Below are positions 5,528 through 24,077 of a stretch of 64,000 nt of DNA, one piece after another (within the stretch, counting starts at the first letter, position 1; every line of letters starts with the position of its first letter). Source of the stretch: Neotamlana laminarinivorans (GTDB taxonomy: Bacteria; Bacteroidota; Bacteroidia; Flavobacteriales; Flavobacteriaceae); contig NZ_JAJAPW010000004.1 of assembly GCF_020523925.1 (NCBI RefSeq), positions 1 to 64,000 of the forward strand, in the 5' to 3' direction. The notes beneath the pieces are model-generated. The model saw nothing but the letters and a program-made list of their open reading frames with translations. It was not told the DNA's origin and did no database searches. The position numbers were made by a program, and so were the translations under genes.

Positions 5528-8500
5528 ATGAAAATAATAGTAGCTAGTTTAGTGTTTGTATTAGGGTTTTGTGGTTTTTCGCAGGGTGGCTTTTCTAATT
5601 ACAAAACTAAAAAAGTCGCTGTTAAAGATAGTATTCGTGTAGATAGTGTTAGTATTAATCCAAATTACTTTTTTGTTAGAACTAACAACCATGCTTTAGT
5701 TGATAGTTCTGACTATATTGTCAATTATCCCAAAGCATTATTAGTTTTTAAAAAACCGATTGAATCAGATTCCATAACTATTGAATATTTAAAGTTTCCA
5801 GATTTTTTAACTAAAACTTATAAACAGTTAGATGAAAGTATAATAACACCAAATAACGCATCTGCCCAACAACTTTATAAATTTACCCAAAGTAATAAAC
5901 AAACCAACGCTTCTTTATTTAATGGTTTAAATACTTCGGGTAGTATTGCTCGTGGTGTTACAGTTGGTAATAACCAAAATTCTGTTTTAAATAGTGAGCT
6001 AGATTTGCAGATTACGGGTAAACTAAACGATAAAGTATCATTAAGAGCTTCAATACAAGATGCCAATGTGCCTTTGCAAGAAAGCGGTTATAGCCAACGT
6101 TTAGATGAGTTTGATCAAGTATTTATAGAATTGTTTAGCGAGCGTTGGCGTGTTAGAGCAGGAGATATTGATCTAATTAACGACGGGTCCTATTTTGCTA
6201 GCTTTTCTAAACGTGTTCAAGGGTTAAACTTTAATGTTAATTTAGGTGATAGTTCTAATAGTACTGATCTTTTTGCGGCTGGAGCTATTGTACGTGGGCA
6301 ATTTGCAACAAGTCAGTTTACGGCTCAAGAAGGTAACCAAGGGCCATATAAACTTGAAGGGCAAAATGGCGAATTGTATGTTTTGGTTGTTTCTGGTAGC
6401 GAAACAGTTTACGTAAATGGTGTTGCGTTAAAACGTGGTGAAAGTGAAGATTATATTATAGATTATAATGCGGGCGAAATAATATTTAATGCTACATTTC
6501 CTATAACTTCAGAAATGCGAATTACTGTAGACTATCAGTTTAGTGATAGAAATTATTCGCGTTTTATAGCTTATGGTGGTGGTGAATATAAAAGTGATAA
6601 ATTTGAAATAGGAGTTACGGTATATTCTGAAAATGATTCAAAAAATCAACCACTACAACAAAACTTATCGGAAGAACAAGTACAGATTCTTGCCAATGCA
6701 GGTGATAATGAAGATTTAATGGTTTCACCATCTGAAACAGAACAGGAATACGATGAAAATCGTATTCTGTACAGAAAAGAGATTGATAATGGTAATGAAG
6801 TTTTTGTGTTTTCTACCAATCCAGACGATGTACTTTATTTAGTGACTTTTAGTTATGTTGGCGAAAACCAAGGCGATTATTATTTAAGCGATATCAGTGC
6901 CATAAATAATATTTACGAGTATGCTGGAGAGAATTTAGGCGACTATGCACCAATTACCCAACTTATTGCACCTGTAAGTCTCCAAGTTGCCGTGTTAAGT
7001 GGTGCATATAATCCTTCAGAAAAAACAGCTATTAAATTTGAAGCTGCAGTAAGCACCAGCGATTTAAACTTATATTCTAATTTAAATGATAATGACAACA
7101 ATGGCTATGCAGGAAAGCTTGTTTTTAATCAGGCTTTAGTAAAAAAAGACAGTTTATGGAATTTAAACGCTTATTTAGATGCCGATTATATTAGTAGTAA
7201 TTTTAGAAATGTTGAAGGTTTATACTCTGCCGAATTTAGTAGAGATTGGAATTTAGATTTAGATAACGTAAATGGTATAGGTTTAGGCTTAGGTAATCAG
7301 GCATTAGTTACTTCAGGTTTAAAATTTTATAAAACAAAAAACGGATTTGCAAATTACCAATTCGAGCATTTAAATTATTCTTCGGGTTTTAATGGAAATA
7401 GGCATGTTATAAACACGCAGTTAAAGTTTAATAAGTTAAAGTTTTTATCATCTTCAAGTTATTTAAAGGCTAACTCTACGGTAAATCAATCTACTTTTTT
7501 AAGATCATATAATCAATTAACTTATAGTTTAAATAAGGCATGGTTAGGAGGTAAATTTGCTATAGAAGATAACCAACAAACCGAAAAAGAAACGCAAACA
7601 TTAACCGATTTGAGCCAGAGATATAAGTCGTACGAAGCATTTTTTGGAGTAGGCGATAGCACAAAAGTTTTTGCAAAAGTTGGTTATATAAACAGAGCTA
7701 ACGATAGTATTCGTAACAACCAGTTGCAAAAAGTAAATACATCGAACACGTATTATGTAGATTCAAAACTTATTCAAAACAAAAACACCAATTTACAGTT
7801 TTTCGCAAATTACAGAACTTTAAATTTTACAGATGAAACCGAAGAAGATGAAAAATCGGTAAATTCTAGATTAATTTATAGTCAAAAGCTCTTTAATCAA
7901 ATAGTTCATTTAAATGTTAATTACGAAACCAATTCAGGAACATTAGCCGAACAGGATTTTACGTATGTTGAGGTTGAAGCAGGTCAAGGTAGTTACACCT
8001 GGATAGATTACAATAACAATAGCATACAAGAGCTAGAAGAATTTGAAATTGCACAATTTTCAGATCAAGGTACTTATATTCGAGTGCTTTTACCTAACCA
8101 AGTTTACATTAATACTCACCAAAATAAATTAAGTAAAACACTTACTTTAAACCCTGCGGTTTGGTCTAGTAGTAAAAAGTATTTTAATAAATTGTTATCA
8201 CATTTTTATTATCAAATCAGTTATTTAATTGATAGAAACAATAGGCGTGAAGGCGATGTTTTTAATTTAAACCCTTTTAAAGAGGATGAAGATAATCAGT
8301 TAGGTTTACAGCTTAATTTTAGAAATGTGTTGTATTTTAACAGAGGAAAACAACACTTTACAACATCGTACACAGTTTTAGATAATACAACCCAAAGTTA
8401 TTTTTCTATTGGCTCATTAAATAGCCGATTAAAAAGTCATCAACTAAATTTTAATCATAAAATTGCAGAAAATTGGTTAATTAATTTATTGGGAGTTTTT

Positions 8501-17866: not shown

Positions 17867-18148
17867 ATGAGAAATTATTCACCTATAAAAGCAGCTCTCA
17901 TGCCTCGAATTTACTGTAATGTTTTCGGGCATGATTACCATGTGACTAAAAAAGTTACTCGCCACGTTAAAGAATACACCTGTACACGCTGTAGCAAAGA
18001 GTTAACAACAAATAGTAATGGAGATTTAACGGCCTTAACTCCTAAGTATAAGGAGATAAACGAGGTTTTAGAGAAAATTCATGCAGCTAGAAGTAGGCGT
18101 TTACGGGGCAAATCTAGCATTTCATCGATTAGCTCGCAAGTAGTTTAA
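17867..18148 (+). CDS. Small Cys/His protein, paralogue 1 (possible zinc knuckle)
   Basis: This 93-residue protein has the pattern YCNVFGHDYH followed 17 residues later by CTRC, giving C-x4-H...C-x2-C, which could bind one zinc ion. The remainder, KELTTNSNGDLTALTPKYKEINEVL, is almost identical to its downstream neighbour. An alternative start at 17900 (MPRIYCNV) matches the neighbour's N-terminus better. Similarity to the short DUF1660-type phage zinc proteins is possible but uncertain. Function unknown. Confidence 0.65.
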   Translation: MRNYSPIKAALMPRIYCNVFGHDYHVTKKVTRHVKEYTCTRCSKELTTNSNGDLTALTPKYKEINEVLEKIHAARSRRLRGKSSISSISSQVV

Positions 18149-18215
18149 TATTCTCAAGCTTTTTACCTAAGTTTAAATATCTCTAATTAACTAATTTAAA
18201 AGATTTTGATAGCGA

Positions 18216-18488
18216 ATGAAAAACCTTTATTGTAAAGTCTTTGGGCACCATTACCAAGTGTCTCGAGAAGTTACTTTACATGTAAAAGAATACACCTGCA
18301 AATATTGCAAAAAAGAACTGACCACAAATAGCAACGGCTATCTTGTTGAGCTAACACCAAAATACAGAGAAATTAATGATGTGTTAGCATCGATGTTTGT
18401 TAAACGTCACGGCATACTTCCAACTACAACTGAAACAAATATATCACCAATAATTACTGTAGGTAGCTTAATAAAGTTTAGTCATTAA
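18216..18488 (+). CDS. Small Cys/His protein, paralogue 2
   Basis: This 90-residue tandem paralogue of the preceding gene shares FGHxY, VKEYTC, KELTTNSNG, LTPKY and EIND/EV, again with C-x4-H...C-x2-C (YCKVFGHHY, CKYC). The C-terminal 25 residues differ completely from copy 1. Its last 11 bp overlap the end of the convergent thiL gene. The pair probably arose by local duplication. No function can be given. Confidence 0.65.
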   Translation: MKNLYCKVFGHHYQVSREVTLHVKEYTCKYCKKELTTNSNGYLVELTPKYREINDVLASMFVKRHGILPTTTETNISPIITVGSLIKFSH

Positions 18489-19607: not shown

Positions 19608-20831
19608 ATGAATTTAAAAGCTAACTATTTACTTTTAATAATTTGCTTCTCTTTTTTATTAATTCAATCATGTAAAACAGAACCTATTGAAACAATTGAA
19701 GGTGTTCTGGCGTCATGCGAAAATGGATTTGCCGATGTTTACCCGTGTAATGGCTACGATTTAGTTGCTCGTATACCTTTAAGCGTGTTTGAAGCTGCAG
19801 CTGGAAATGACTGTTGGGGTTGGACGGATATTGCTACAAACAAAGAATATGCTTTAATGTGCTTAAATAATGGGGTTGGTTTTGTAGATATTACAGATGC
19901 TCTAAATCCTGTTTATTTAGGCAAGTTGCCTACAGCTACTTCCTCAAGTTCATGGAGGGATGTAAAAGTTTATAATGATTATGCGTTTATTGTAGCCGAT
20001 AATGCTGGTGCACATGGTATGCAAGTTTTTGATTTAACTCGCCTAAGAACGGTTACTAATGCACCAGAGACTTTTAATCCTGATGCGCATTTAACCGATT
20101 TCGAAAGTTCACATAATATCGTAATAAACGAAGCTTCAGGTTATGCATATATTGTTGGGGCTAGCAGAATATCTACTTACGCAGGTGGGCCTATTTTTGT
20201 AAATATTCAAAACCCTTTAGCGCCTTTTGTTGAAGGTGGTTTGCTTGATGGCGGTTACAGTCACGATGCACAAGTAGTTACTTACAATGGTCCAGATACA
20301 GATTATTCTGGTATGGAAATTTTAATTGGTAGTAACGAAAACGAAGTTGTAATAGCTAATGTTACAGATAAAAGTAACCCGGTAGTTATTTCTACAATAA
20401 GTTACGCAAACGTTGGTTATGCACATCAGGGTTGGTTTACGGAAGATTTCAACTATTTTATTTTAGGCGATGAGTTAGACGAAATAAACACGGGAACAAA
20501 CACAAGAACTTTAATTTTTAATTTTTCAGATTTAGATAATCCAACATTTCACATGGGGTATTTGTCAGATTTTTTGGCTATCGATCATAACGGATATGTT
20601 TTAGGCAATACATTTTATCAGGCAAGTTACAGAGCAGGAATGAGGGTTATAGATATATCAGAACTAGCCAACTCAACAATGAGTGAGATTGGTTATTTCG
20701 ATACATATCCAAACGATAATAACGCTAATTTTAATGGTGCTTGGAATGTGTATCCGTTTTTTTCTAGTGGAAATATTATCATCAGTGATATTGAAGGCGG
20801 TTTATTCGTGGTAAGAAAAAGCGAAAGTTAA
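19608..20831 (+). CDS. Choice-of-anchor B / LVIVD repeat lipoprotein
   Basis: The 407-residue protein starts with a lipoprotein signal (CFSFLLIQSC, Cys22). It has repeats of the type GVGFVDITDALNPVYLGKL, VKVYNDYAFIVADNAGAHG, AYIVGASRI and HDAQVVTYNGPD, characteristic of LVIVD beta-propellers in choice-of-anchor B family proteins. A short Cys-rich segment (CENGFADVYPCNGYD) follows the anchor. It is probably exposed at the cell surface or in the periplasm. It is the first gene of a tight four-gene run (gaps 12, 0 and 2 bp) that ends with MbnP and MbnH homologues. Confidence 0.75.
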   Translation: MNLKANYLLLIICFSFLLIQSCKTEPIETIEGVLASCENGFADVYPCNGYDLVARIPLSVFEAAAGNDCWGWTDIATNKEYALMCLNNGVGFVDITDALNPVYLGKLPTATSSSSWRDVKVYNDYAFIVADNAGAHGMQVFDLTRLRTVTNAPETFNPDAHLTDFESSHNIVINEASGYAYIVGASRISTYAGGPIFVNIQNPLAPFVEGGLLDGGYSHDAQVVTYNGPDTDYSGMEILIGSNENEVVIANVTDKSNPVVISTISYANVGYAHQGWFTEDFNYFILGDELDEINTGTNTRTLIFNFSDLDNPTFHMGYLSDFLAIDHNGYVLGNTFYQASYRAGMRVIDISELANSTMSEIGYFDTYPNDNNANFNGAWNVYPFFSSGNIIISDIEGGLFVVRKSES

Positions 20832-20843
20832 TTGTTTTTCAAT

Positions 20844-22172
20844 ATGAAAAGTCAAAGTGTTTTTTTCGTACTTCTTTTATTGAAATTACTTGTAAGTTGT
20901 TCTTCGGAAAATGAATCTTCAAAAACTTCAGCACCAGAAATCAATTTTATCAAAACACTAGGCGGAAGCAATAATGATAGTGCAGAATCGGTTGTTTCTA
21001 CTGCTGATGGTGGTTACGCTATTTTGGGTTATACACAAAGTTTTGATGGCGATGTAACAGAAAAAAGTAATGATGCATTCAACTTTTGGCTTTTAAAATT
21101 TGACGCTTCACATGTTTTGCAATGGCAAAAAAACTACGGCGGAAGTAATGATGATAGAGGTAGTAGTATAATTGAAACTCAAGATGGTGGCTTTGCCATT
21201 TTAGGTTACAGCCAAAGTACAGATTTAGATGTAAACGAAAACGCAGGAGCTAAAGATTATTGGGTACTTAAATTAAACGCCTTAGGCGAACAGCAATGGC
21301 AAAACAACTTTGGTTTTATTGGTGATGATAGCGGTATTTCAATTATACAAACTAACGATTCAGGGTATTTATTAACAGGGGTTTTAGATGTTTCAGCATC
21401 CGAAGGACAAGGAAATAGTAAAGTTTCAGATATTAAACATGCGGGTGGCGATTATTGGGCTATTAAACTTGGTAATTCAGGGAATTTAGAGTGGAGCCAA
21501 TATTTTGGAGGTACTTTTACCGATACGCCTTATGCAGTAGTGCAAACCAACGATAATGGTTTTATTTTAGTAGGATCTTCAGATAGTAATGATGTAGATA
21601 TTTCATCAAACAAAGGGTCGTACGATTTTTGGGTTGTTAAACTGTCTGAAACAGGAGTATTAGTTTGGGAGAAATCTTTTGGAGGAACAGAAATAGATGA
21701 AGCTAGAGCTATTACAAAAACTAGCGATAATAATTATGTAATTGTTGGCGATACTAGAAGTAACGATACCGACGTTTCATTAAATAACGGTGCTGCCGAT
21801 TTGTGGGTTATAAAAATTAACGATTCTGGAGATTTAATCTGGGAAAAAACTTTTGGAGGTACAAGTTTTGATGCTGGTCGTTCAGTATTTTTAACCAACG
21901 ACGATGGGTTTTTAATTTCAGGAAGCTCAAGAAGTGTAGATGGTAATGTAAATAAAAACGAAGGTCAAAACGATGCTTGGGTTTTAAAACTCGATGAAAA
22001 TGGTAATCTGCAATGGCAACAAACTATAGGAGGTAGCGAAATAGATTATTTTTATGATGCTGCCCAACTCAGCGATGGTAGTTTTATTGCAGTAGGCGAG
22101 TCAAGCAGTGCAAATGCAGATATTCTGGAAAACAAAGGGTTTTCAGATCTGTTAATTTTAAATTTAAAATAA
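20844..22172 (+). CDS. Seven-repeat propeller-like lipoprotein
   Basis: With ATG at 20844 the protein has 442 residues and a clean lipoprotein signal (FFVLLLLKLLVSC, Cys19). A TTG in frame 12 bp upstream abuts the previous stop and was not used. The mature part is built of about seven 55-60-residue repeats of the type FGGTxxDxAxxVxxTxDxGFIxxGxSxS, then D.WVxKL.. and LxWxKxxGG, with regular Trp and Gly, predicted to form a beta-propeller. No catalytic motif is visible. It directly precedes the MbnP gene. Confidence 0.7.
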   Translation: MKSQSVFFVLLLLKLLVSCSSENESSKTSAPEINFIKTLGGSNNDSAESVVSTADGGYAILGYTQSFDGDVTEKSNDAFNFWLLKFDASHVLQWQKNYGGSNDDRGSSIIETQDGGFAILGYSQSTDLDVNENAGAKDYWVLKLNALGEQQWQNNFGFIGDDSGISIIQTNDSGYLLTGVLDVSASEGQGNSKVSDIKHAGGDYWAIKLGNSGNLEWSQYFGGTFTDTPYAVVQTNDNGFILVGSSDSNDVDISSNKGSYDFWVVKLSETGVLVWEKSFGGTEIDEARAITKTSDNNYVIVGDTRSNDTDVSLNNGAADLWVIKINDSGDLIWEKTFGGTSFDAGRSVFLTNDDGFLISGSSRSVDGNVNKNEGQNDAWVLKLDENGNLQWQQTIGGSEIDYFYDAAQLSDGSFIAVGESSSANADILENKGFSDLLILNLK

Positions 22173-22934
22173 ATGAAAAAAATAGCCTCAATATTATGTT
22201 TATGTTTAATTGTTTTTTCTTGCCATGAAGATAAAGACGACAATATTACAAACACTAGCATAGTTTTTAATTTTTCGCATAATTGGGATGGAGAAGAAGT
22301 GTCTAGTAGTAATTTTAATACTATTCAATATACAAATGCTAACGGCGAGCAATTAAGTATAGAAAAACTAAGATATCTTATTTCAAGAATAACATTTACT
22401 AACCTAAATGGAGAAGCTTATGTTTTAGAAGGTTATAATCTTGTTGATGTTACAAATAATTCGGGTTTAACGTTTTCATCTTCAACCGAAATCCCGTTTG
22501 ATACTTATACGGTTTCATTCGTTTTTGGTTTTAATAACGATGATAACTATCAAAATTATACCGATTTAAATTCAGAATCTTGGAATGTGCCAGAAGCACT
22601 TGGTGGTGGTTACCACTATATGCAGTTAGAAGGTAAGTTTATCGATAACGCTTCCGCGGAAGTGGGCTACGCATATCATGCTATTCGAGCTGTTGATGCA
22701 ACCGAAGACGAGTTAGAATTTACAGATACTTTTATTGAAGTAGATTTAGGTGAATTTGAACTTGTAAACAATGTTGTTTTTAATGTTGAAATGAATATTG
22801 CTGAGTGGTTTAAAAGCCCAAACACTTGGGATTTAAATGAGCTTAATAATGCGCTTATGCCAAATCATGATGCACAAGTTATGATGTTTCAAAATGGGCA
22901 AAATGTGTTTAGTTTAAATTCCATTGAACAGTAG
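22173..22934 (+). CDS. MbnP-like copper-binding lipoprotein
   Basis: The 253-residue protein has a lipoprotein signal (LCLIVFSC, Cys17) and an MbnP-like domain: FNFSHNWDG, YTNANGEQLSIEKLRYLISRI, then GGGYHYMQLEGKF. MbnP proteins occur beside di-heme MbnH enzymes; in methanotrophs MbnH oxidises a Trp of MbnP to kynurenine, and the product binds copper. Here W38 in HNWDG, two residues after H36, is a candidate for modification (inference). The MbnH-like gene follows by 2 bp, which supports the assignment. Confidence 0.8.
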   Translation: MKKIASILCLCLIVFSCHEDKDDNITNTSIVFNFSHNWDGEEVSSSNFNTIQYTNANGEQLSIEKLRYLISRITFTNLNGEAYVLEGYNLVDVTNNSGLTFSSSTEIPFDTYTVSFVFGFNNDDNYQNYTDLNSESWNVPEALGGGYHYMQLEGKFIDNASAEVGYAYHAIRAVDATEDELEFTDTFIEVDLGEFELVNNVVFNVEMNIAEWFKSPNTWDLNELNNALMPNHDAQVMMFQNGQNVFSLNSIEQ

Positions 22935-22936
22935 TT

Positions 22937-24004
22937 GTGAAAAATTGGTTTTTGCATATAAGTGTTTTAATAAGTTTGTTGTCTTGTGATAATGAATCGG
23001 TTGAAAATTATAGCAACTCACCAACTTTAAGCCCGCTACAGATTCCAGAATTATTTCAGGAAAATATAATAAACCCAGTTATACCAAACGATAATCCGCA
23101 AACAGTTGAAGGTGTAGCTTTAGGTAAAAAATTGTTTTTCGATTCTGTGTTGTCTGGAAACAATACTCAAGCTTGCGCTACTTGCCATATGCCCGAAAAT
23201 GCTTTTTCGGATAATTTAGCTTTTAGTTTGGGGGCAGAGGGTGTTTCAGGAATTCGAAATGCAATGCCACTGTTTAATTTAGCTTGGAACTATAACGAAA
23301 ATTTCTTTTGGGATGGTAGTGTTTTTAGTTTGGAACATCAAGCATTTGTGCCAGTTACAGATTCGCTTGAAATGAAAAATTCATGGGAAAACGTTGTTGC
23401 AAAACTGCAAAATGATTCAGAATATCCAGAGTTGTTTCAGCAAGCCTTTCAAACTTCAATAATCGACTCTGCTTTAGTGGTTCAAGCTATCGCTCAGTTC
23501 GAACGTACGTTAATATCTTCAAATTCAAAATTCGATAAATATCTTTTGGGAGAAACAGAGTTAACTTCAGAAGAACTTGAGGGGTTTAATGTGTTTATGG
23601 ATGAGGAAAGAGGCGATTGTTTTCATTGTCATGGTAGCGATAAAAATCCGCTCTGGACAGATAACGATTTTCATAATAATGGTCTAGACGAAACATTTAT
23701 AGATTTGGGTTTGGGGGCTGTGTCTGGTGATCCTGCCGATAACGGAAAATTTAAAACGCCATCTTTACGCAATTTGGCTTTTACAGCGCCATATATGCAT
23801 GATGGTCGTTTTGCTACAATCGATGAGGTTATTAATCATTACAGCGAGGGTCTTAAAAATTCTTCAACAATCGATCCTTTAATGAAAAAAGTTGCCCAAG
23901 GCGGTGTAGGTTTGTCTGAAACAGATAAAACTAATCTTAAGGCGTTTTTGTTAGCTTTAACTGATTATGAGTTTGTTACAAATGCAGACTTTCTCGATCT
24001 ATAA
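22937..24004 (+). CDS. MbnH/cytochrome c peroxidase family di-heme protein
   Basis: This 355-residue protein starts with GTG and has a lipoprotein signal (ISLLSC, Cys17). Two c-type heme motifs are visible, CATCH (C80, C83, H84) and CFHCH (C228, C231, H232), with the family sequences ALGKKLFFD, GIRNAMPLFNLAW and TAPYMHDGRFATIDEVI. The family contains bacterial cytochrome c peroxidases, MauG and MbnH. The MbnP-like gene directly upstream favours an MbnH-type role, oxidising its partner protein. A peroxide-detoxifying peroxidase is the alternative. Confidence 0.82.
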   Translation: MKNWFLHISVLISLLSCDNESVENYSNSPTLSPLQIPELFQENIINPVIPNDNPQTVEGVALGKKLFFDSVLSGNNTQACATCHMPENAFSDNLAFSLGAEGVSGIRNAMPLFNLAWNYNENFFWDGSVFSLEHQAFVPVTDSLEMKNSWENVVAKLQNDSEYPELFQQAFQTSIIDSALVVQAIAQFERTLISSNSKFDKYLLGETELTSEELEGFNVFMDEERGDCFHCHGSDKNPLWTDNDFHNNGLDETFIDLGLGAVSGDPADNGKFKTPSLRNLAFTAPYMHDGRFATIDEVINHYSEGLKNSSTIDPLMKKVAQGGVGLSETDKTNLKAFLLALTDYEFVTNADFLDL

Positions 24005-24047: not shown

Positions 24048-24077
24048 TTGAAATACACGTCTTAAATTGTATATTTG
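24048..24077 (+). promoter_or_regulatory. Promoter of the suf operon
   Basis: TTG at 24048-24050 and TATATTTG at 24070-24077 are separated by 19 bases and match the Bacteroidota -33/-7 consensus. The element ends 18 bp before the sufA ATG. A perfect 10-bp palindrome (ACTATATAGT, 24019-24028) lies 20 bp upstream of the -33. Confidence 0.7.

Follow-up and report, generated by a model that had tools for sequence, protein, structure and literature searches.

What do an MbnP-type lipoprotein and an MbnH-type di-heme protein do behind two propeller lipoproteins, in a genome where no methanobactin locus is found? This question is raised by four genes of Neotamlana laminarinivorans (Flavobacteriaceae; assembly GCF_020523925.1), which lie in the first 64,000 nucleotides of contig NZ_JAJAPW010000004.1. 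This whole stretch is called the window, and the genes are referred to as A, B, P, and H.

Gene A, 19608..20831, + strand: open reading frame (ORF) of 407 amino acids (aa); choice-of-anchor B lipoprotein with a candidate metal site, predicted to be an LVIVD-type propeller of seven blades
Gene B, 20844..22172, + strand: 442 aa from ATG; lipoprotein with seven SBBP-like repeats, propeller-like
Gene P, 22173..22934, + strand: 253 aa; predicted MbnP-fold lipoprotein of the GYHYM subtype
Gene H, 22937..24004, + strand: GTG start, 355 aa; MbnH/MauG-like di-heme lipoprotein

The ORF calls leave gaps of 12, 0, and 2 bp (A-B, B-P, and P-H), as an initial annotation, made from the sequence alone, had stated. 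The lipoprotein signals that it assigned to all four products agree with lipobox cysteines that we read by eye: C22 in A (LIQSC), C19 in B, and C17 in both P and H. Its family names for A, P, and H were upheld by TIGR04312, by PF20243, and by profile search plus a tree, respectively. Our preferred answer, which we hold with about equal measures of confidence and doubt, is that P is a lipoprotein with a Cu(I) site that its own MbnH matures, and that it is attached to the propeller pair A-B; we infer the copper, the kynurenine, the surface location, and the functional link to A-B. Because two types of pair stand behind the same A-B genes, W137 of P is kept, and H lies near the MbnH structure 6e1c, we read P-H as a working pair of the MbnP/MbnH type. 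Such a pair and a conserved gene order had both been proposed in the initial annotation and stood up to analysis; its choice of W38 as the target residue and of the propellers as scaffold or substrates did not.

P and H as an MbnP/MbnH-type pair

We compared P with profiles and structures of the MbnP family. P passed Pfam PF20243 (MbnP) with 83 bits against a cut-off of 27. The TIGR04052 profile (MbnP_like_WxW) gave no match to P at E 1, and three canonical flavobacterial MbnPs reached 48 to 61 bits against it, likewise under the cut-off of 140. No MbnP structure was found for P by phmmer or with profile A1; profile A2, built from canonical forms, reached 7l6g, the MbnP of Methylosinus trichosporium, at E 0.068, behind a chance nanobody match. 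As the sequence searches were nearly empty, the fold was settled by fold search with an AlphaFold2 model (pLDDT 90.2, built from 62 sequences). The only matches at E ≤0.001 were six chains of 7l6g, which VIA-align superposed on the model with Z 16.4 and a root mean square deviation of 3.6 over 212 residues; the next entry had Z 7.1. As modelled, P has the MbnP fold.

For comparison within the family, we sorted 130 P sequences by motif into WxVP (63), WxW (40), FxWP (11), WNWP (10), and FxVP (4), with two left unclassed (L094 and L105). The WxVP, FxWP, WNWP, and FxVP rows make up 88 GYHYM rows, and the classified rows number 128. Four fragments or broken genes were dropped (L111, L067, L091, and L092), and the set includes duplicates from the same genome (L025/L128, L006/L136, L018/L137, L023/L138, L078/L147, and L014/L130, among others). 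The motif stretch of the window P reads N-S-E-S-W137-N-V139-P-E-A-L-GGGYHYMQLEG, where that of 7l6g is GMAWNWQAG. The first Trp is kept and the second is Val, so that W137-N-V139 fails the WxW motif test. No Met occurs within four places before the motif in any of the 88 GYHYM rows; M-x-W-x-W is present in 40/40 WxW rows, a count that is not independent, since the WxW class rule relies partly on M.W.W. The residues discussed below are as follows.

P W38, 22284..22286, + strand: candidate target of the initial annotation; Trp in 66/88 GYHYM rows and 0/40 WxW rows
P W137, 22581..22583, + strand: homolog of the first WxW Trp; preferred candidate for oxidation
P H148 and M150 of GYHYM, 22614..22622, + strand: candidate replacement ligands; His in 88/88 and Met in 85/88 GYHYM rows
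P H169, 22677..22679, + strand: candidate copper ligand; His in 128/128 classified rows, covering all MbnP types compared
P W212, 22806..22808, + strand: GYHYM-specific Trp, alternative target; 87/88 GYHYM rows and 0/40 WxW rows
H heme motif 1, CATCH at residue 80 (C80/C83/H84), 23174..23188, + strand
H W125, Trp of FWDG, 23309..23311, + strand: 137/137 rows
H heme motif 2, CFHCH at residue 228 (C228/C231/H232), 23618..23632, + strand
H Y302, 23840..23842, + strand: 133/137 rows; also Tyr in 6e1c

In M. trichosporium MbnP, the first Trp of WxW is converted to kynurenine, and the copper site is of the His/Met kind. W137, which we take to be the counterpart of that oxidized residue, is accordingly the expected target in P. 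It is Trp in 73 of the 77 WxVP, FxVP, and WNWP rows, in 0/11 FxWP rows, and in all 40 WxW rows. The initial annotation had placed W38 correctly in the sequence, and we rejected it as first-choice target because no WxW row has Trp there and W137 occupies the homologous place. The conserved His (HxG of canonical forms) is present in P as H169, and the GYHYM residues are largely private to their class, the states of H148 and M150 occurring in 0/40 and 2/40 WxW rows. In the model, one strand (150-157) begins at M150 and another (163-170) ends near H169, which stands at the strand end; the two would form a hairpin that brings the strands of M150 and H169 together, as we infer from the model.

A quick P tree, unrooted and covering 69 of the 130 rows with most GYHYM rows thinned, separated WxW from GYHYM by one branch (SH-aLRT 98). 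Inside GYHYM, the 11 FxWP rows formed one group (99), WNWP rows were scattered, and a branch of 23 rows (98) held 20 WxVP rows, two FxVP rows, and L094. On this unrooted grouping, a WNWP-like form probably gave up its second Trp a single time, and FxWP lost the first one independently. In this tree and that of H, L135, L141, and L145 are labelled as WNWP without A-B, yet they have A-B. Outside Bacteroidota, a GYHYM-type MbnP with an MbnH-like neighbor was seen in a bin labelled Krumholzibacteriia (L105, 522-1379). Relatives of MbnP in other Bacteroidota (L183, L186, L187, and L188) carry W-x-x-W, as in YWxxWxSYIF, instead of WxW, and L186 and L187 have two P genes ahead of H. A literature search that reached few subscription papers brought up no work about the A-B pair or about MbnP of the GYHYM type.

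The location of P was considered from the residues after its lipid-bearing Cys. Acidic residues at +2 to +7 averaged 2.7 in P, the highest of the four families (H, 1.8 to 1.9), by a count with a crude lipobox pattern that missed many rows and misread the window A. This acidic stretch is in keeping with the export signals that PMC5080379 describes for Bacteroidetes surface lipoproteins, and P is probably located on the cell surface.

H matched PF03150 (CCP_MauG) with 193 bits and has the two heme motifs at the residues given in the initial annotation. Its nearest Protein Data Bank (PDB) entry was MbnH 6e1c (E 1.7e-52, aligned over residues 45-354 of H), and cytochrome c peroxidases (CCPs) followed at E 1e-27 to 1e-38. 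Every residue of both CxxCH motifs is kept in at least 136 of 137 rows, which include 6e1c and the window protein twice. W125 presumably lies between the hemes, and we take Y302 to be the Tyr at the axial place as in MauG and MbnH. W150 of H is present in 76/77 WxVP, FxVP, and WNWP rows and in 11/11 FxWP rows, and in 0/39 WxW rows. An H tree whose outgroup was the CCPs 1iqc and 4aal placed the remaining 70 rows, including 6e1c, apart from both (SH-aLRT 99); the tree was made by a quick method, with long rows present and MauG not among the sequences. H was therefore rejected as a classical CCP, the outcome on which the initial annotation had let its assignment depend. The tree falls into FxWP, WxW, and WNWP/WxVP groups, the same three main types as in the P tree, and the MbnP gene directly adjoins H. 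Judged by its sequence, H is a di-heme protein of the MbnH kind.

The same genome holds a second, canonical MbnP/MbnH pair on another contig (L001/L127). Two further CCP_MauG proteins of the genome, encoded at C37:543016 and C103:58008 (L114 and L115; 390 and about 610 aa), have no MbnP nearby and reach 252 and 202 bits with TIGR04039, the MbnH model; both MbnP matches of the genome lie on contigs other than theirs. A profile search of the genome for the MbnB family, PF05114, gave zero matches, which speaks against a methanobactin locus and, for this family, extends to the whole genome what the initial annotation had said of the window.

The propellers and the conserved locus

Protein A matched TIGR04312 (choice_anch_B) with 537.5 bits against a cut-off of 100. 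Structure prediction, which had been suggested for both propellers and was run for A, gave an AlphaFold2 model (pLDDT 93.2) that structural matches indicate to be a seven-bladed propeller. The best Foldseek match of the model was the haloalkylphosphorus hydrolase 5hrm (E 6e-12), which aligned over 336 residues with Z 30.1 and 16% identity; WD40 propellers tie with it at Z 30-31. Eight residues of A (H169, H219, H273, H327, D288, E289, D291, and E292) are invariant among 71 sequences, and W70-G-W72, W116, W276, and W379 are invariant or nearly so. In a profile comparison with weak scores (E 0.15 to 0.26), one His of A, His169, aligned with His residue 389 of chain 5ioj, a presumed metal ligand. 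A looks like a metal-dependent enzyme and more than a scaffold. At E 0.01, the LVIVD repeat was matched by 42 of the 71 A proteins and a type IX secretion tail by 24, so that in those sequences, at least, A is secreted or at the surface.

B matched the SBBP/LipL53 model weakly (55 bits against a cut-off of 400). Its repeats number seven by eye, printed as six blocks of which the first contains two, and its sequence matches were the CylK propeller and designed propellers. In L152 and L153, and also in L155 and L181, three to five tandem choice-of-anchor B genes, some encoding far more than 400 aa, precede B-P-H.

A search with P retrieved 80 loci, and in 59 of them the genes run A-B-P-H, with median gaps of 9, 3, and 6 bp as computed from mechanical ORF starts; the four-gene order is thus conserved in Flavobacteriaceae. 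Two more (L067 and L091) have the same order with broken genes, and in L067, from Lacinutrix neustonica, A, B, and H are each split into several ORFs around an intact P. We also surveyed 199 Flavobacteriaceae genomes, using 150 listed TIGR04312 places and binning MbnP places by bits, not by motif. Among the TIGR04312 matches listed, one lay within 10 kb upstream on the same strand in 55/59 MbnP places under 112 bits, in 4/14 at 112 to 128 bits, and in 6/38 over 135 bits; the low-bit bin includes one WxW-like MbnP (G180; M.W.W, classed WxW). The distance from TIGR04312 to MbnP is often about 1450 bp, the space for one gene.

P-H is not always present behind A-B. Among the TIGR04312 matches listed, 32 genomes have A and no MbnP, and we inspected 16, mostly high in the TIGR04312 list and not chosen at random. 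A and B are adjacent in 14/16, and they lie between thiL and suf in 12/16. The residues of A do not change there: 17 of 18 listed ones are identical in 16/16 P-less genomes, and H136 is in 15/16. Since A-B is kept without P-H in 14/16, the function of A does not require this P-H pair. Judged from gene order, the more constant element of the thiL-A-B-suf locus is A-B, with P-H optional and A not dependent on it.

P-H is also not always of one type. WxW pairs stand behind A-B at thiL-suf in L128, L136, L138, and L139, and L137 has a WxW-type A-B-P-H with other flanks. The pair types differ yet stand behind the same A-B slot, which makes P-H an optional module of two types. On a ThiL+SufB tree (58 of 85 rows), in which the root forks are weak, at least seven changes are needed among the states none, WxW, and GYHYM. 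The A-B tree (67 of 95 rows) needs five, with "none" as one group (93); the WxW label needs five changes there, and the starred branches force three. L138 is absent from both trees and L067 from the A-B tree. The WxW pairs behind A-B form one group in the P tree (99, six rows) and in the H tree (98, five rows). These comparisons suggest that P-H was exchanged repeatedly at a fixed slot, the reading that we prefer.

In the window, A-B-P-H is flanked by thiL, on the opposite strand, and by sufA on the other side. A promoter-like site stands before sufA.

Promoter-like TTG-N19-TATATTTG, 24048..24077, + strand: before sufA; the sole match to TTG-N17-23-TAnnTTTG in two stretches scanned

The pattern reflects what we take to be the Bacteroidetes promoter consensus. 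Given this site, the suf genes may be a separate transcription unit; promoter-like sites were rarer than in shuffled sequence, and terminator-like sites were no commoner than in shuffles. Before thiL, at 17867-18488 of the window, lies a tandem of two small, similar ORFs, 93 and 90 aa long, that carry FGH and CxxC motifs, and ORFs resembling them (cluster c19) are present in nine compared loci.

A different small protein, of about 120 to 135 aa with the motif C[NSD]G[KQ]C[HYM], precedes P in 14 of the 46 loci examined, which were chosen and not random. Ten of these are of the WxW type (L127, at 7883-8263, L129, L130, L142, L144, L146, L149, L154, L197, and L201) and four are WNWP (L084, L086, L095, and L098); in loci L032-L083, nearly all with A-B, it was found in 0/52. 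Three such proteins that we tested had no Pfam match. It may be a copper or thiol partner in MbnP systems. A TonB-like receptor or barrel-like protein lies near some P-H pairs without A-B.

Explanations of the locus

In the mechanism that we favor, H would draw on peroxide to convert a Trp of P into kynurenine or a similar product; the likeliest target is W137, and its oxidation would complete a Cu(I) site around H169. H148 and M150, near the H169 strand in the model, would probably substitute for the lost Met. The resulting His/His(/Met) site would come nearer to the two-His site of CorA. The operon would most likely couple surface copper binding to the A-B pair, as supplier, buffer, or protector; that copper is supplied to the propellers, or protects them, is a guess. 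Support for the pair comes from W137 and H169 of P, kept in 73/77 close relatives and in every classified row, and from the retention of Tyr302 and Trp125 in H. CorA, as described in PMC3912023, sets a precedent for kynurenine, two His, and a di-heme neighbor gene. A broader version of this idea, which we regard as unlikely, is that the GYHYM subtype represents a second MbnP copper-site design, His/His/Met, in which the oxidized Trp has moved or is no longer needed. In that view, P-H would be an exchangeable copper-handling module that A, a metallo-propeller on the cell surface of Flavobacteriaceae, has recruited, and would not belong to a receptor system for copper uptake.

Several findings weigh against the favored mechanism. 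The best NCBIfam model of H is TIGR04039 (MbnH), and its 261.6 bits fall below the cut-off of 362.85. The canonical H of the genome reaches 222.5 bits, and since the two CCP_MauG proteins without a nearby MbnP score alike, this score alone does not separate MbnH. With P failing the WxW definition and H below the MbnH cut-off, the pair is a variant of MbnP/MbnH and not a strict member. Position 137 is Phe, and 139 is Trp, in all 11 FxWP rows. In the FxVP rows (L069, L080, L081, and L133), position 137 is Phe (three) or a gap (one) and 139 is Val, and all four loci have H adjoining P despite the lack of a motif Trp; thus, W137 is not required in all. As to the locus, L140 has a WxW-type P behind A-B at thiL, with no H detected in a stretch that does not reach suf. 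In Tenacibaculum haliotis (L094, 7905-8693), P stands alone between thiL and suf, with no A, B, or H found at that place. ThiL and SufA clusters occur in 60/79 and 55/79 compared loci; with most loci at one thiL-suf place, much of the conserved order reflects shared descent. In other Bacteroidota families, no A-P adjacency within 10 kb was seen in 16 genomes with both, in a comparison by eye among the places listed; within Flavobacteriaceae, that comparison showed it in G125, G283, and the source genome. Finally, an approximately unbiased (AU) test did not reject a single group of the six WxW loci with A-B on the A-B tree (p 0.318), so that repeated exchange is suggested and not proven.

The FxVP rows, with neither motif Trp and H present, speak for an alternative that we consider rather unlikely: H acts on another residue of P, with W212 as the best choice, or the site needs no oxidized Trp and H148, M150, and H169 bind Cu(I) directly. 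W212 is kept in all but one of the GYHYM rows whatever the states at 137 and 139, is absent from the WxW rows, and is matched by W150 of H, which follows the same class split. This pattern traces one deep split and hence carries no weight as co-variation. The retention of W137, which we take to be homologous to the Trp oxidized in M. trichosporium MbnP, also argues for the oxidation of W137. The order of the genes could instead be inherited synteny, with P-H behind A-B by history and without joint function. That thiL precedes and suf follows in most loci, the AU result, and the lack of adjacency in the other families examined all fit this explanation, which we consider about as unlikely as the preceding one. 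Against it, gaps of a few bases suggest co-transcription, two pair types occupy one slot, and the state changes number at least seven on the ThiL+SufB tree and five on the A-B tree.

It is quite improbable, in our view, that A (and B) are the substrates or clients, with H modifying a Trp of A or P loading copper into A in the manner of mtoX. A has the conserved Trp set and four invariant His, two P-H types stand behind A-B, the SBP56 structure 2ece appears at rank 50 among the Foldseek matches of A, and, according to PMC5739008, mtoX lies in a cluster together with genes for a copper chaperone and a MauG-like protein. The P-less genomes, in which A-B mostly stand together without P-H and the residues of A are the same, weaken this idea and with it the scaffold or substrate role of the initial annotation; the objection loses some force in that another MauG-like protein of the genome might serve A instead. 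Least probable is that H is an ordinary di-heme peroxidase that clears hydrogen peroxide, with P as its docking lipoprotein. H belongs to the CCP_MauG family and aligns with CCPs in the PDB, but its nearest structure is MbnH, and Y302 (in its presumed role), the tree, and the MbnP-fold neighbor all argue against it.

The favored reading of P as a copper lipoprotein matured by H matters because MbnP/MbnH is one of few systems in which a Trp of the protein itself becomes part of a copper site. Among natural relatives, WxV forms lack the second Trp, FxW forms the first, and FxV forms both, each with an MbnH-like partner; they offer a test of the Trp and ligands needed, and the FxV relatives would show what the heme enzyme does without its usual target. 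The fixed slot, with two pair types behind the same propellers, is a lead to partners of MbnP outside methanobactin loci, where PMC3621798 calls the relevance of such systems unclear.

Comparison with known systems

The pair of M. trichosporium OB3b (7l6g, with MbnH-type chain 6e1c) is adjacent, as here, and the aligned first Trp and His of 7l6g (GMAWNW and VHVGS) are kept in P. The window pair differs in that the genome has no MbnB-family gene, both products are lipoproteins, and A-B are neighbors; P has WxV for WxW, has lost the preceding Met, and has gained GYHYM. The canonical flavobacterial pair of the same genome (L001/L127) shares with the window pair the adjacency, the lipoprotein starts, and a His equivalent to H169. 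Canonical pairs differ by their M-x-WxW motif, found in 40/40 WxW rows, and those without A-B have a CNGKCH protein of about 125 aa upstream in 8/10 family loci with long flanks.

Further likenesses concern the copper site and the propeller. CorA/CorB and MopE/SACCP of methanotrophs combine, according to PMC3912023 and PMC3621798, a copper protein with kynurenine and two His with a di-heme partner gene. CorA and MopE were not in the displayed rows of the fold search of P, which does not exclude a relation. The haloalkylphosphorus hydrolase of Sphingobium sp. TCM1 (5hrm), the fold match of A, is described as a phosphotriesterase with a binuclear metal center on a seven-bladed propeller. In mtoX-SCO1-mauG, the methanethiol oxidase cluster as given in PMC5739008, an enzyme gene stands with a copper protein gene and a MauG-like gene, as A does with P-H; the window has MbnP in place of SCO1, and A belongs to another family, also found without H.

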